DNA of 64,000 nucleotides from Lachnospiraceae bacterium MD335 (lineage in GTDB: Bacteria > Bacillota > Clostridia > Lachnospirales > Lachnospiraceae), in contig KE159628.1 of the NCBI GenBank assembly GCA_000403335.2, positions 185,387 through 249,386 of the forward strand, read 5' to 3'. This document shows positions 35,962-40,756 of this stretch, piece after piece. A program made the position numbers and the translations under genes. Numbering within the stretch: position 1 is the first letter of the stretch; each line of letters starts with the position of its first letter. The notes beneath the pieces are model-generated. The model saw only the letters and a program-made list of their open reading frames with translations, was not told the origin of the DNA and made no database searches.

Positions 35962-36013
35962 AAAAATAAAATCCTTTCCGCCATAACTTATCGGCGAAAA
36001 GGATTTTATTTTT
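35962..36013. terminator. Strong bidirectional terminator after the YwgA-like gene
   Basis: A 21-base stem with one mismatch pairs 35962-35982 with 35993-36013, with a ten-base loop. The arms are A-rich on one side and T-rich on the other, so it can work in both directions. It begins at the stop of the minus-strand gene. Confidence 0.85.
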
Positions 36014-36559
36014 CTATCCTGATATTGCATATTTTTGTTCCAACGGGAAAAACTCCTCCATCACTGTTTGATATGAAGTCTCAATTTCATTATGATTAAA
36101 GCGTTTTCCCTTTGCATTAGACACTTTTCGGATAACAGCTTCTTTATCATCATCCCCAAACAAAACCTTTTGCTGTCTGTCAATAAAAAAAGTTGTAGCC
36201 GTAATTTCCAGTTGCTTTGTTGTCATTTGATTACAAAGCCCAAGTATATCCTTTACAATTTTTTTCGAAATATCAGACAGCTTGTTCTCCGATTTAACAA
36301 TATCATTTAAAAAAATATCATAATTTACACCTTTTCCGATAACTCCATCTGACTCTGTCAAAATATTGTCAGCTACACAATCCTGTAATGCATTTGCAAC
36401 CTGCTGACTATATGGACCATATATATACAGCTTATAGTTCGCATTAACATCAACACCCATTGCTTTACAAAAATAAACCAATTTCTGCAGCTGCACACGG
36501 CCTTGTATCTCACCCCCTTTTTCCTCTAACAACTGAATAATAAATGCGTTTGATTCCAT
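36014..36559 (-). CDS. YwgA/Panacea-like protein
   Basis: The 181-residue soluble product begins with a helical unit and KLVYFCKAMGV, followed by YKLYIYGPYS near residues 42-51. The KLQKLVYF plus YGPYS pair resembles the YwgA family and, more distantly, the DUF4065/Panacea antitoxin domain. As I recall, in Bacillus ywgA lies beside the HD-phosphohydrolase gene ywfO, as here. AGGAGG lies seven bases before the ATG, the best ribosome binding site of the three-gene group. A gap of 118 bases separates it from the HD gene. Function is unknown; an antitoxin or regulatory role towards the two upstream enzymes is inferred from the fold and context. Confidence 0.6.
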   Translation of the reverse strand: MESNAFIIQLLEEKGGEIQGRVQLQKLVYFCKAMGVDVNANYKLYIYGPYSQQVANALQDCVADNILTESDGVIGKGVNYDIFLNDIVKSENKLSDISKKIVKDILGLCNQMTTKQLEITATTFFIDRQQKVLFGDDDKEAVIRKVSNAKGKRFNHNEIETSYQTVMEEFFPLEQKYAISG

Positions 36560-36677
36560 AAAAGCGCCTCCTGATTTTAGCTATTGTATTATTTTAATTA
36601 TTTTTTAAATGGTAACCATATTAAATTCTATGCCTTGATTCATCTGAATATTTTTGTTACACGCATCCTCGCGTTTC

Positions 36678-38252
36678 TTATTCAAGCTCATTATTAATAG
36701 TGAGGTCTTCCTCCATATCCTTAACTTTCATCTTTAATTTATTCATCTCGCCCTCAAGCGTTTTTATTCTCTCTTTATCTTCTGCTAATTCGACATTCTT
36801 CTTAGTATATTCCTCATTAAACCAATGATTACATTTCTTTTGTATTTCCTCTACAGTTTGCTCTTCTGCATAAACACGTAAAATACTGATTTTACGGTCT
36901 GAAATACTCCTTAACGTGAAGGAATAATCCTGAATCGGTTTAATCTCACCGCCATGCTTAGGTATTACCGGTATTGCCGGCATTTCCTGTGACAATGATA
37001 CTTCAGCCATACAATCCGGATCCGACTCTTCATTATACACCTTAATATCGAAAATATGTTTGGTTGTGGAGCCTTTTGCTAAATCGACATATATCTCTTT
37101 ATTTCCTGCATGTTCCGCTTTTATTTTCTTGTTCATATAAGATATTCTATGATATGCCTCTCTTTGCTCTTCGTCTTTTTCATTGTAGTGTACATACGGC
37201 GAGTCAAAAGCAACCTTATGATGTTTTCTGTTATATAGCTTGTTCGCAAAATAACATATGTCAGATTTATCTTTTTTCTTTGCGTATTGTTTGATAATAC
37301 ACTCAATTTCATCATCGTCTAATTCCAAATACTTATCCAGCTCTTCAGGATATTTTCCATTGTTTATCTTTTTACATTTTAAAAACTCTTTTAAAAAGGA
37401 ACTTAAATAATAATCAAACAATCTACGGTCCTTGTGAAAATATACCTGGATAAACATCCAATAACGGGCTAATACAAATGCTTCCACAGCCTGTATCCCA
37501 TTTTGGCTAATGGCTAATACGTGATTGTCATCAAACTCTGCAACACTCAGAGAATGGATAAGTTTTTCCAAGTCAAAGACCCCATATTCCACGCCGCAAT
37601 AATGGCTATCCCTAAGCAGGTAATCCATTTTGTCGCAATCGAGCTGTCCGCTTATAATATCATCAAAAAAACGAAAAGTCGGATCACTGGAGCCTTGGCT
37701 AAGAATCATTAGAATATCTTCCACCATGCTATATCCCTTTGATTTTGGCCAAAATTCTTCAATTGTTTTTGATAAGCGTTCTTTAATAATGCAACGTGTA
37801 TAAATCTCATGCCCTGAAGCCAATTCTCCACTGACAGGATCTTTTAAATTTGGATATATATCCGCATCTGCTTCACCCACATGAGAGAAGCAACCATGCC
37901 CAATATCATGGAGAAGCGCAGCCATACGTACTGATGCCCTTTTTACAAAATATTCTTTCTCACTTAAATCTTCTAAAGGCTTAAATTTCCGTAAGTGATC
38001 CATTACGCGCCCTGCAACATGCATTACACCAATACTATGCCCAAATCGGGTGTGTTCCGCGCCATGATATATTAAATATGTCATACTAAGCTGATGAATT
38101 CTGCGCAGTCTTTGAAATTCTTCCGTATCAATCAATGCCCGTTCCCATTGATACACAGGTATCAATCCATGAATAGGATCCCTAAACACACTTGTTTTAC
38201 CTGCATTTAATAAAAAAGCTGATTTCTCATTTTCTTGCATGACTTTATCCAT
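36678..38252 (-). CDS. HD-domain phosphohydrolase of SAMHD1/YwfO type
   Basis: The 524-residue product opens with VFRDPIHGLI, as in SAMHD1-type dNTP triphosphohydrolases. It keeps the HD metal ligands: His72 in HTRFGHS, His115-Asp116 in LLHDIGHG and Asp207 in DCDKMDYLLRD. Catalysis is therefore likely, on a (d)NTP or a related nucleotide such as an alarmone. A C-terminal tail (about 455-524) is charged, with coiled-coil character, longer than in simple YwfO proteins. It starts 23 bases after the alarmone synthetase stop, with GAGG upstream of its ATG, so the two are co-transcribed. Base composition is clearly more AT-rich than proS upstream, suggesting acquired DNA. Confidence 0.85.
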   Translation of the reverse strand: MDKVMQENEKSAFLLNAGKTSVFRDPIHGLIPVYQWERALIDTEEFQRLRRIHQLSMTYLIYHGAEHTRFGHSIGVMHVAGRVMDHLRKFKPLEDLSEKEYFVKRASVRMAALLHDIGHGCFSHVGEADADIYPNLKDPVSGELASGHEIYTRCIIKERLSKTIEEFWPKSKGYSMVEDILMILSQGSSDPTFRFFDDIISGQLDCDKMDYLLRDSHYCGVEYGVFDLEKLIHSLSVAEFDDNHVLAISQNGIQAVEAFVLARYWMFIQVYFHKDRRLFDYYLSSFLKEFLKCKKINNGKYPEELDKYLELDDDEIECIIKQYAKKKDKSDICYFANKLYNRKHHKVAFDSPYVHYNEKDEEQREAYHRISYMNKKIKAEHAGNKEIYVDLAKGSTTKHIFDIKVYNEESDPDCMAEVSLSQEMPAIPVIPKHGGEIKPIQDYSFTLRSISDRKISILRVYAEEQTVEEIQKKCNHWFNEEYTKKNVELAEDKERIKTLEGEMNKLKMKVKDMEEDLTINNELE

Positions 38253-38275
38253 ACCTAATTCCTCTCATTTGTATT

Positions 38276-39223
38276 TCATTTATTTGGATTACGCATTTTT
38301 TTATATAAAACAGGAAATCGGGATTTCATGGCAAGTCTTAATTTTCCAGCATAACTATAAAAAGGCTCTCCTTTTTCGCCGCTTTTTTTAGCTTCTTTTT
38401 TTCTAATTCCTTCCATTTCACTTGAAAGAAGTTCCCTAAGCTGTCCTACAGTATTGATGCCGCAAAAGGAAAGTTCTTCCAACAAATCATCGAAAGGCTC
38501 TTGTAATTTTTTATTTTCTTTTAAAAATAGTTCATCTAAAATATGTTCTAAAAGAATACTGTTTAATGTGGTTTCCGAACATTCTTTCTCATTATTGGAA
38601 GTTTCCTGCAAGGATAATCGGTAGCATTCTTTGGCATTTAAAATGGATTCTAATTCATCATCTACAATTTCCAGCACTGCGGCCAAACGATTAATATTGC
38701 GCCGCATCACATAAGGGACTGACGAATCTCTTTTATATTGCAAAAGATGAGAAGACGCCGCCCAAACGTGTTGACTAAAAGTTCTGACTTGCAATTCGAC
38801 ATCAAGCTTAGAATACTGAGAATCCGTCGGCGATTTAATCCACTCCTCTGGTACCTTGAGTTGAAAGTGAATAGATAAATAACCGAAACAATTATCCGTT
38901 TTTTCCTGCGCTTTATCGTCTTCCCATGCTATTTGAAATGTGTTTCTTACCATATCACAAATAGTACAAACATCCCTTTTGAATAATGTAATAATACGAA
39001 ATCCAATAATGTCATGAATATCTTGTAACGGCAAAGATTTTCTCTCCATTTTTTCCAAAATGGAATCCAACGTTTTAATTCTGGAACTTAATTCGTAATA
39101 ATAAACATCTGTTTCTTTTATAAGTTCTTTAAACTGTTTTTCCAAATAATCACAAAAACGCTCATATATATTATATTCTTGCTTATATTTGCTAATAAAT
39201 AATTGTATTTCTGTATTTTCCAT
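38276..39223 (-). CDS. RelA/SpoT-type alarmone synthetase, single domain
   Basis: The 315-residue product has a RelA/SpoT nucleotidyltransferase domain (about 35-165). Visible are SRIKTLDSIL (Arg48, Lys50), DIIGFRI (Asp71, Arg76), GYLSIH (Tyr115, His119) and ELQVRT (Glu143, Arg147), then WAASSHLLQYK. The catalytic Asp and Glu are kept; the usual EH of the last motif reads SH. No HD hydrolase, TGS or ACT domain is present, so it belongs with small alarmone synthetases. A helical C-terminal extension of about 150 residues is unusual for housekeeping ones. The ATG lacks a clear ribosome binding site. The product could be (p)ppGpp, or a toxic (p)ppApp as in toxSAS toxins; the sequence does not decide. 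Confidence 0.82.
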   Translation of the reverse strand: MENTEIQLFISKYKQEYNIYERFCDYLEKQFKELIKETDVYYYELSSRIKTLDSILEKMERKSLPLQDIHDIIGFRIITLFKRDVCTICDMVRNTFQIAWEDDKAQEKTDNCFGYLSIHFQLKVPEEWIKSPTDSQYSKLDVELQVRTFSQHVWAASSHLLQYKRDSSVPYVMRRNINRLAAVLEIVDDELESILNAKECYRLSLQETSNNEKECSETTLNSILLEHILDELFLKENKKLQEPFDDLLEELSFCGINTVGQLRELLSSEMEGIRKKEAKKSGEKGEPFYSYAGKLRLAMKSRFPVLYKKMRNPNK

Positions 39224-39316
39224 ATTTTTTACTGATTTATCTATATAAATAGTATCCAGTATCAGCCGCTGCTAATCCAAATAATGTCAGCTATCATAAC
39301 AACATCCTAATGTTTA

Positions 39317-40756
39317 TTAATACGCCCGACCCCAATAAACCATTTTCTTCGCCGGCTTTCCGCAACAAACACATGTATCGCTCAACTGCTCCTGCTCAAA
39401 CGGCATACACCTGCTGGTCGCCGTAAGCTCTTCTTTAATCCTATCCTCACACGCCTGCTCGCCGCACCACATTGCCTTCACAAAGCCAGGCTTATTGTTA
39501 ATTGTGTCACAAAATTCATCCCATGTTACCGCACTGTAAATATGCGATTCCAAATGCGCCTTTGCAGCCTCGTACATATCCTTCTGAATCGTCTCAAGCA
39601 ACTCTGCCGCCTTCGCTTCAACGTCATCAAGCGCAACCTCTGTCTTCTCTCTCGTGTCACGCCGCACGAACACGCACTTATTGTTCTCAATATCTTTCGG
39701 TCCGATTTCAATCCTAAACGGAACGCCGCGCATCTCGCACTCGTTGAACTTCCAGCCCGGGCTCTTGTCTGTATCATCCACCTTTACGCGGAATCCGCTC
39801 TTGAGCAAACGCTCACGCAGCGCATATGCCTTGTCAAGCACGCCCTCTTTTTTCTGCTGAATCGGAATCACCATAATCTGTGTCGGCGCCACCTTGGGCG
39901 GAAGCTTCAGACCCGAATCATCGCCATGCACCATAATCACGGCGCCGATAATACGCGTCGATACGCCCCATGACGTCTGATAACAATACTTCAATGTATT
40001 GTCCTTATCTGTATACTGTATGTCAAACGCCTTCGCAAAACCGTCACCAAAGTTGTGGCTTGTGCCAGACTGGAGCGCCTTGCCGTCGTGCATAAGAGCC
40101 TCTATCGTATAAGTAGACTCCGCACCCGCAAATTTCTCCTTTTCCGTCTTTTGCCCCTTCACAACGGGAATTGCAAGTACATCCCTTGCAAAATCAGCAT
40201 ATACGTTCAGCATCTGAATGGTGCGCGCCTCCGCATCCTCTGCGGTCGCGTGTACGGTATGTCCCTCCTGCCACAAAAATTCGCGGCTTCTTAAAAACGG
40301 GCGCGTAGTCTTTTCCCAGCGCACAACCGAGCACCACTGATTATATACTTTCGGCAAATCCCTGTAGGACTGCACTTCATTTTTATAAAAATCGCAAAAC
40401 AGCGTCTCCGACGTAGGACGCACGCACAGACGCTCCTGCAGCGGCTCCAGTCCGCCGTGTGTCACCCATGCGACTTCGGGCGCAAAACCTTCCACATGGT
40501 CTTTTTCCTTTTCCAGGAGACTCTCCGGTATGAACATGGGCATATACACATTCTCAACGCCCGTCTCCTTGAACTTCGCGTCAAGCTGCTGCTGTATCTG
40601 CTCCCAAAGCGCATAACCTGCCGGTTTAATAATCATACAGCCCTTTACGCTGGAATAGTCGCAAAGCTCCGCCTTTTTTACCACGTCCGTATACCACTGG
40701 GCGAAATCCTCTTCCATCGAAGTAATCGCCTCTACAAGCTTTTTATCGTCTGCCAT
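39317..40756 (-). CDS. proS: Proline--tRNA ligase, eukaryote/archaeon-like type
   Basis: This class II synthetase charges tRNA-Pro with proline. The 479-residue length and the lack of an internal editing insertion fit the short type found in many Firmicutes. Visible are motif 2 ([21 protein letters not shown]), the anticodon-binding domain around [13 protein letters not shown], and a C-terminal zinc-type region with [21 protein letters not shown] 40756 is chosen: AAGGAG is about 12 bases away, while the GTG at 40765 would leave only three. No T-box leader is present in the 81 bases upstream. The gene ends 93 bases before the alarmone synthetase gene. Confidence 0.96.

Follow-up and report, generated by a model that had tools for sequence, protein, structure and literature searches.

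A SAMHD1-type HD gene with a YwgA-like partner, next to a phage-type alarmone synthetase gene in Lachnospiraceae bacterium MD335

Do three neighbouring genes of Lachnospiraceae bacterium MD335, coding for a small alarmone synthetase, a SAMHD1-type HD protein and a small YwgA-like protein, belong to one conserved module, or do they bring together units that move separately? The genes lie on the minus strand of a 64 000-nt stretch of contig KE159628.1 (positions 185,387 to 249,386; assembly GCA_000403335.2), hereafter the window. An earlier note, made from the letters of the window alone, had proposed an alarmone-based toxin–antitoxin or anti-phage module in which the synthetase was the novel addition to a probably housekeeping HD-YwgA pair. 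The three open reading frames (ORFs) are indeed present where that note had placed them, with the synthetase gene at 38276..39223 (315 aa), the HD gene at 36678..38252 (524 aa) and the YwgA-like gene at 36014..36559 (181 aa), separated by 23 and 118 bases, respectively, and their GC contents of 0.326, 0.361 and 0.346, against 0.504 for proS, bear out the AT-richness described there. Comparison with other genomes reverses the proposed roles. That is, recurrence is seen for the HD-YwgA pair and not for the three genes together; the pair is patchily distributed, horizontally spread and partly associated with defence genes, and the locus is of more interest for this pair than for the three-gene arrangement.

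Recurrence and spread of the HD-YwgA pair

Among the best 80 of 432 confirmed HD loci, which constitute the named-genome set, YwgA adjoins the HD gene in 22 (23 with a broader YwgA model), and the paired loci include Lachnospiraceae, Clostridium, Bacillus, Poribacteria, Coatesbacteria, Chloroflexi, Rhodospirillaceae, Methanothrix and an uncultured archaeon. Locus L045, from a genome of the same class, has the gene order of the Clostridium thermobutyricum locus L099, and the two were counted as one. The order is HD followed by YwgA in 21 of the 22 pairs, with gaps of −13 to +74, and is reversed in L138, as well as in three loci from further genomes beyond the named set (L043, L231 and L232). 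A search of 398 genomes of the same phylum, source genome included, gave a YwgA match at 1e-5 in 90 and an HD match at 1e-60 in 75. Outside the window, 80 HD matches were compared against 79 YwgA rows: YwgA neighboured 62 of them but not the other 18, and it was adjacent to each of the 44 strongest, in one case as a fragment. Seen from the YwgA side, an HD gene was located upstream of 37 of 41 full-length copies (40 loci). In an HD tree of 73 rows, built by a quick method, the YwgA label requires 7 changes versus 19.8 in shuffles, and YwgA-linked copies from different phyla and domains are intermixed. The window HD protein forms a clade with L099, L067, L066 and L068, all of which are YwgA-linked (SH-aLRT 92). 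No paper on the HD-YwgA pairing was found in the open-licence literature, one part of the search being dominated by papers on human SAMHD1.

By contrast, the trio was seen only once. No synthetase of the type found in the window (phrog_9640-like, see below) occurred together with this HD type or with YwgA in 80 HD loci, in 70 YwgA loci or in 80 viral synthetase loci, the last being those kept from 157 viral relatives confirmed by an alignment-based search, a single-protein search having found none. The same holds for six close HD loci. None of the 18 synthetase loci from the same family, of which the source genome contributes one, contained YwgA, and L050 alone had an HD match, of Dgt type. 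Since none of the 80 HD and 70 YwgA loci holds that synthetase family, the HD-YwgA pair stands without it. The co-occurrence of the three families across genomes, whose absence the earlier note had itself named as speaking against its proposal, was found at no other locus compared, and a conserved three-gene module was rejected for want of a second example.

Within the genus (38 genomes), a synthetase match at 1e-20 was obtained in the source genome only, and the three-gene set at E 1e-20 in none of the 37 other genomes, some of which are incomplete. Three of these other genomes have an HD match at 1e-20, two of them with YwgA adjoining, and the third HD gene is cut by a contig end, with no YwgA seen there. 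In the six congeners inspected, other genes occupy the place after proS. In two of them (L265, 1060-2512, minus strand; L266, 1886-3330, plus strand) a different RelA_SpoT protein of 298 aa is encoded just after proS (PF04607 at 1.6e-18 in L265), followed by a protein of 176-179 aa for which no Pfam match was found in L265. This other synthetase-type pair at the same place suggests that the spot may repeatedly take up synthetase-type modules.

Defence-type genes, identified by single-protein PADLOC matches, neighbour HD-YwgA in 4 of 15 loci. These are PglX, PglZ and BrxA (BREX) immediately upstream of the pair in L099, a type IIG enzyme and a ThsB-like TIR protein in L076, a WYL protein and PDC-S26 in L080, and a DUF1156/HmaB-like methylase directly after YwgA in L073. 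Ten flanking proteins from five of the 15 loci were scanned singly, and two gave no match; other flanks hold ribosomal-protein, sugar-pathway and similar genes, and seven Bacillaceae-type loci were excluded. A bulk PADLOC scan gave 149 families among 78 flanking proteins of the 15 loci versus 8 among 78 controls drawn at random from 325 proteins around 50 HD loci without YwgA (one control came from L117, later assigned a YwgA by the broader model), counts that were not used because a single protein can match many families. The reverse-transcriptase, PbeA and PDC-S01 matches of the bulk scan were not tied to any locus.

The two genes also differ in how often they are damaged, as scored by ORF length with an HD gene of 370 aa or more taken as intact and five further cases, cut by an end, excluded. 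The HD gene was whole next to 39 of the 59 intact YwgA copies, short next to 15 and absent from 5, the figures for 11 damaged YwgA copies being 1, 4 and 6, respectively; the single intact HD gene among the latter (L318) has an intact YwgA too. Under a model-coverage rule, by which some whole ORFs (such as L368) were misjudged, HD counted as intact beside 36 of the same 59 copies and as short or missing beside 23. Counted from the HD side, the gene was intact (at least 370 aa, no stop) in 50 of 62 YwgA-linked cases versus 18 of 18 unlinked ones; YwgA spans at least 125 positions in 11 of the 12 non-intact cases, some of which are at contig ends. It is as if the HD enzyme gene decayed before the YwgA gene, an asymmetry that a toxin–antitoxin pair would show, with the caveat that the set was found via YwgA and that the HD gene is the longer of the two. 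In the L300-L369 series, a stop or shift interrupts several HD genes that adjoin an intact YwgA (e.g. L300, L303 and L335).

The HD protein and its YwgA-like partner

The HD protein matches the Pfam families HD_assoc_2 (PF19276, 6.8e-11) and HD (PF01966, 1.4e-9), both over the cut-offs, and its phmmer matches are 2hek (1.2e-44), 2o6i (2.5e-38), a structure that we take to be EF1143, and SAMHD1 (3e-24 for the best chain). By both methods it resembles proteins of the dNTPase (deoxynucleoside triphosphate, dNTP, hydrolase) type and not of the alarmone-hydrolase type. All four metal ligands listed in the earlier note (His72, His115, Asp116 and Asp207) are present, together with an H124/E127 pair. 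H115, D116, D207, H124 and E127 are invariant across five aligned HD sequences, and at H72 one sequence (L045) is incomplete. The protein is a probable dNTPase of the SAMHD1/YwfO type, with predicted dNTP triphosphohydrolase activity. HD matches at 1e-20 were obtained in 3 of 100 same-family genomes, source genome included. The source genome encodes a second, distant HD protein of 584 aa (35% identity; L044, 5134-6888, minus strand), with no YwgA-like neighbour within the stretch examined.

Bacillus subtilis 168 presumably carries the HD-YwgA pair as well, under gene names that we take to be ywfO-ywgA. In this Bacillus type, as seen in Bacillus mojavensis (L129), HD and then YwgA are immediate neighbours, as in the window. 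The window HD protein, however, falls into a separate HD clade and has 524 versus 435 aa, and its locus differs by the 118-base gap between HD and YwgA and by the synthetase gene upstream.

For the YwgA-like protein, the C-terminal half of DarG gives matches of 7.7e-14 in PADLOC and 1.2e-10 in NCBIfam, the latter below the whole-protein cut-off, as expected when only half a protein matches, and its closest fold in the structure comparison is likewise the DarG C-terminal domain. It can thus be described as a stand-alone relative of the DarT-binding domain of DarTG systems. Unlike DarG, it has no macrodomain and no DarT alongside, its neighbours being the HD gene, i.e. the linked enzyme, and on the other side a 3142-aa ORF. 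The earlier note had assigned all three proteins to the right families, but its further suggestion of a distant relation of the small protein to Panacea fits less well than DarG: the Panacea match (E 0.0084, 17.5 bits) is below the Pfam SocA_Panacea cut-off of 25.7. Among the structure matches listed there is no chain named Panacea or SocA. The Panacea profile reaches E <= 0.01 in 6 of 23 relatives (best 2.6e-5), and the protein has a GP-containing motif, YGPY at residues 47-50, instead of the GPV given for Panacea (PanA/SocA) antitoxins in the available text of PMC8832971. Panacea was therefore set aside as the best label, its sub-cut-off match standing against the stronger DarG C-terminal match and fold. 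A weak match to the PADLOC candidate PDC-M19A (E 2e-5) covers residues 6-117 versus a 294-position model. A search of plasmids and phages with the window YwgA-like sequence gave no match.

The synthetase and its phage relatives

The synthetase matches RelA_SpoT (PF04607) at E 1.6e-21, over the Pfam cut-off, and structure comparison places the synthetase domain at residues about 10-201 (38621..39196, minus strand). Asp71 and Glu143, to which the earlier note had pointed, are present along with R48, K50, S54, K58, R76, Y115 and H159 (residue roles as given in the part of PMC5794853 available). As that note had also stated, the protein is without a hydrolase or regulatory domain in a Pfam scan and its tail is helical in the predicted model. 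That is, residues 202-315 (38279..38620, minus strand) form a helical C-terminal domain of about 110 residues, a candidate regulatory or sensor region, with no strand of three or more residues beyond residue 148; the solved-structure matches listed mostly stop near residue 200 and hardly cover this part.

Among the structure matches listed, the core is closest to RelQ/RelP, with which it has the fold and the ATP-binding and catalytic residues in common. It differs from them by the additional C-terminal domain and by a Ser before the conserved His (WAASSH), where RelQ has Glu; all 11 of the best viral copies have the Ser too. Furthermore, the PHROG match identifies a phrog_9640-like long type of small alarmone synthetase, and in the tree the window protein forms a clade with 10 viral rows (support 93/95, just below the strict mark of the program, with long branches elsewhere in the tree). 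Plain RelQ/RelP membership was not adopted, although RelQ/RelP head the structure lists, because the tree groups the synthetase with viral rows. Of the 11 viral copies that match best, 8 lie beside a portal gene, and the immediate neighbours of 100 synthetase-family members form no dominant cluster (the largest, of nine, is a phage portal-type gene; 128 are singletons).

CapRel is likewise a single-gene RelA/SpoT-type enzyme with an extra C-terminal region, also found on phages. CapRelSJ46 matches phrog_4773 at 1.3e-144 over residues 5-370 of 373 and PDC-S33 at 7e-87 over residues 11-370, whereas the window synthetase matches them at residues 27-172 and 27-157 only, and identity with CapRel was rejected since these matches are confined to the synthetase core. 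Moreover, the window model, with no strand of three or more residues after residue 148, is unlike the three-stranded pseudo-zinc-finger of CapRel described in the accessible portion of PMC9712102. The phrog_9640-like family adds a phage-carried single-gene RelA/SpoT-type candidate that is separate from CapRel.

Some relatives have recurrent neighbours of their own. A chromosomal subgroup of long synthetases (L053, L054, L058 and L060) recurs near a DHFR-like gene, named by eye, in a number of same-family genomes, and its role may thus be a settled one. In L050 (1030-5148) a synthetase relative is followed by an alarmone-hydrolase-like gene and then by a Dgt-type HD gene (names by eye), an arrangement that lends the earlier note partial support. 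On the viral side, a one-cluster gene of 541-547 aa is located 88-100 bases upstream of the synthetase, on the same strand, in L146, L150 and L151, and matches GmrSD_N in L146 (PF03235, 9.9e-36). A second phage synthetase group, on viral contigs L219, L222, L224 and L225 (phrog_32462 at 1.9e-139 in L222), has an upstream one-cluster neighbour of 341-365 aa, touching or at most 6 bases away, of the PF04245 nucleoid-associated type in L219; synthetase and neighbour make a possible two-gene system.

A working model, its alternatives and the operon layout

The reading that we favour, at about even odds, is that the three-gene operon was assembled from two independently moving units, HD-YwgA and a prophage-type synthetase, that act as outlined here. 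In the HD unit, the SAMHD1-family dNTP triphosphohydrolase would be the effector, and the YwgA-like partner, a winged-helix protein of the DarG C-terminal type, would bind it and keep it inactive, as DarG does DarT. Phage or other stress would then disturb the complex, leading to destruction of dNTPs and arrest of replication. The synthetase unit, a single prophage-type phrog_9640 gene upstream, would encode an ATP-dependent pyrophosphotransferase that its helical C-terminal domain may hold off until triggered, in a CapRel-like action with another kind of C-terminal domain. In animal cells, enzymes of the SAMHD1 family have a guarding role, and the antitoxin DarG has been studied; if the model is true, the SAMHD1-type and DarG-type pair would be a regulated dNTP-depletion switch in many bacteria and some archaea.

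A possible but doubtful alternative is that ordinary nucleotide-pool and stress genes are adjacent by chance, HD-YwgA serving dNTP homeostasis with YwgA as a regulator, next to an additional (p)ppGpp synthetase. The pair is present in Bacillus and its relatives (e.g. L129), and YwfO has been proposed as a pool-cleaning pyrophosphohydrolase in the available part of PMC4993169. The RelQ/RelP-like core with its retained ATP-binding and catalytic residues, the DHFR-like gene beside some same-family relatives and the presence of seven RelA_SpoT loci in the source genome are also in line with such a role. Against it speak the patchy occurrence of HD in same-family genomes, the intermixing of YwgA-linked HD proteins from different phyla and domains, the defence-type neighbours, the loss of integrity in 12 of 62 YwgA-linked but 0 of 18 unlinked HD genes, and the fact that the nearest synthetases are viral.

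We consider it unlikely that the locus is one integrated toxSAS-type module with the synthetase as toxin and the HD hydrolase and YwgA-like protein as antitoxins. As in toxSAS toxins of the FaRel2/PhRel2 type, a synthetase domain with catalytic residues is present; the genes share a strand, a 23-base gap and an operon-like layout; DarG and Panacea proteins are antitoxins; and the L050 relative adjoins an alarmone-hydrolase-like gene. Yet no conserved, dedicated antitoxin gene was found beside the synthetase, its relatives have no dominant shared neighbour, the HD protein matches proteins of the dNTPase type, and the absence of this synthetase family from the HD and YwgA loci leaves the arrangement without a second example.

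The Clover system consists of the dNTPase CloA and a nucleotidyltransferase whose product, p3diT, keeps CloA inactive, according to the portion of PMC12265719 available, and the window locus likewise has an HD-type dNTPase gene with a putative restraining partner. The HD motif and H...E spacing are equal (H115/D116 and H124/E127 in the window, H117/D118 and H126/E129 in CloA; same source). The partner, though, is a DarG-type protein and not a p3diT-making nucleotidyltransferase; no CloB-type nucleotidyltransferase was found beside the window HD gene, where the neighbour is a RelA_SpoT-domain protein, YwgA being the usual partner in the HD group. A bolder, combined reading is improbable in our estimate: HD-YwgA would be an undescribed dNTPase toxin–antitoxin or defence module, a protein-based counterpart of Clover in which the DarG-type protein acts directly on the SAMHD1-family dNTPase to restrain it, and in the source genome the pyrophosphorylated product of a prophage synthetase recruited upstream would in addition tune or release the dNTPase. 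Least credible is allosteric control of the HD dNTPase by a nucleotide signal from the synthetase, to which YwgA would add a further restraint at the protein level: the p3diT precedent, the end of the synthetase gene 23 bases before a dNTPase-type gene and the Dgt-type HD gene two genes on in L050 are offset by the synthetase being RelA/SpoT-type and not CloB-type, by a synthetase-HD pairing seen once and by the occurrence of HD-YwgA elsewhere without the synthetase.

Of the module proposed in the earlier note, then, the toxin–antitoxin or defence flavour stays plausible and so does co-transcription, while the trio itself was not found together elsewhere. From their layout, the three genes look like a single operon. 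A promoter-like site (TTAATA-16-TATGAT, with TG before the second hexamer) is located between proS and the synthetase gene at 39293..39320 on the minus strand; it is suggestive by position only, because such sites are no more frequent in the region than expected by chance (13 observed versus a mean of 15.5 in shuffles). Directly 3′ of the YwgA-like gene, at 35964..36011 on the minus strand, there is an intrinsic-terminator-like hairpin of 20 pairs with a loop of 8 and a T-rich tail, terminator-like sites on both strands of the region numbering 5 versus a mean of 2.6 in shuffles.

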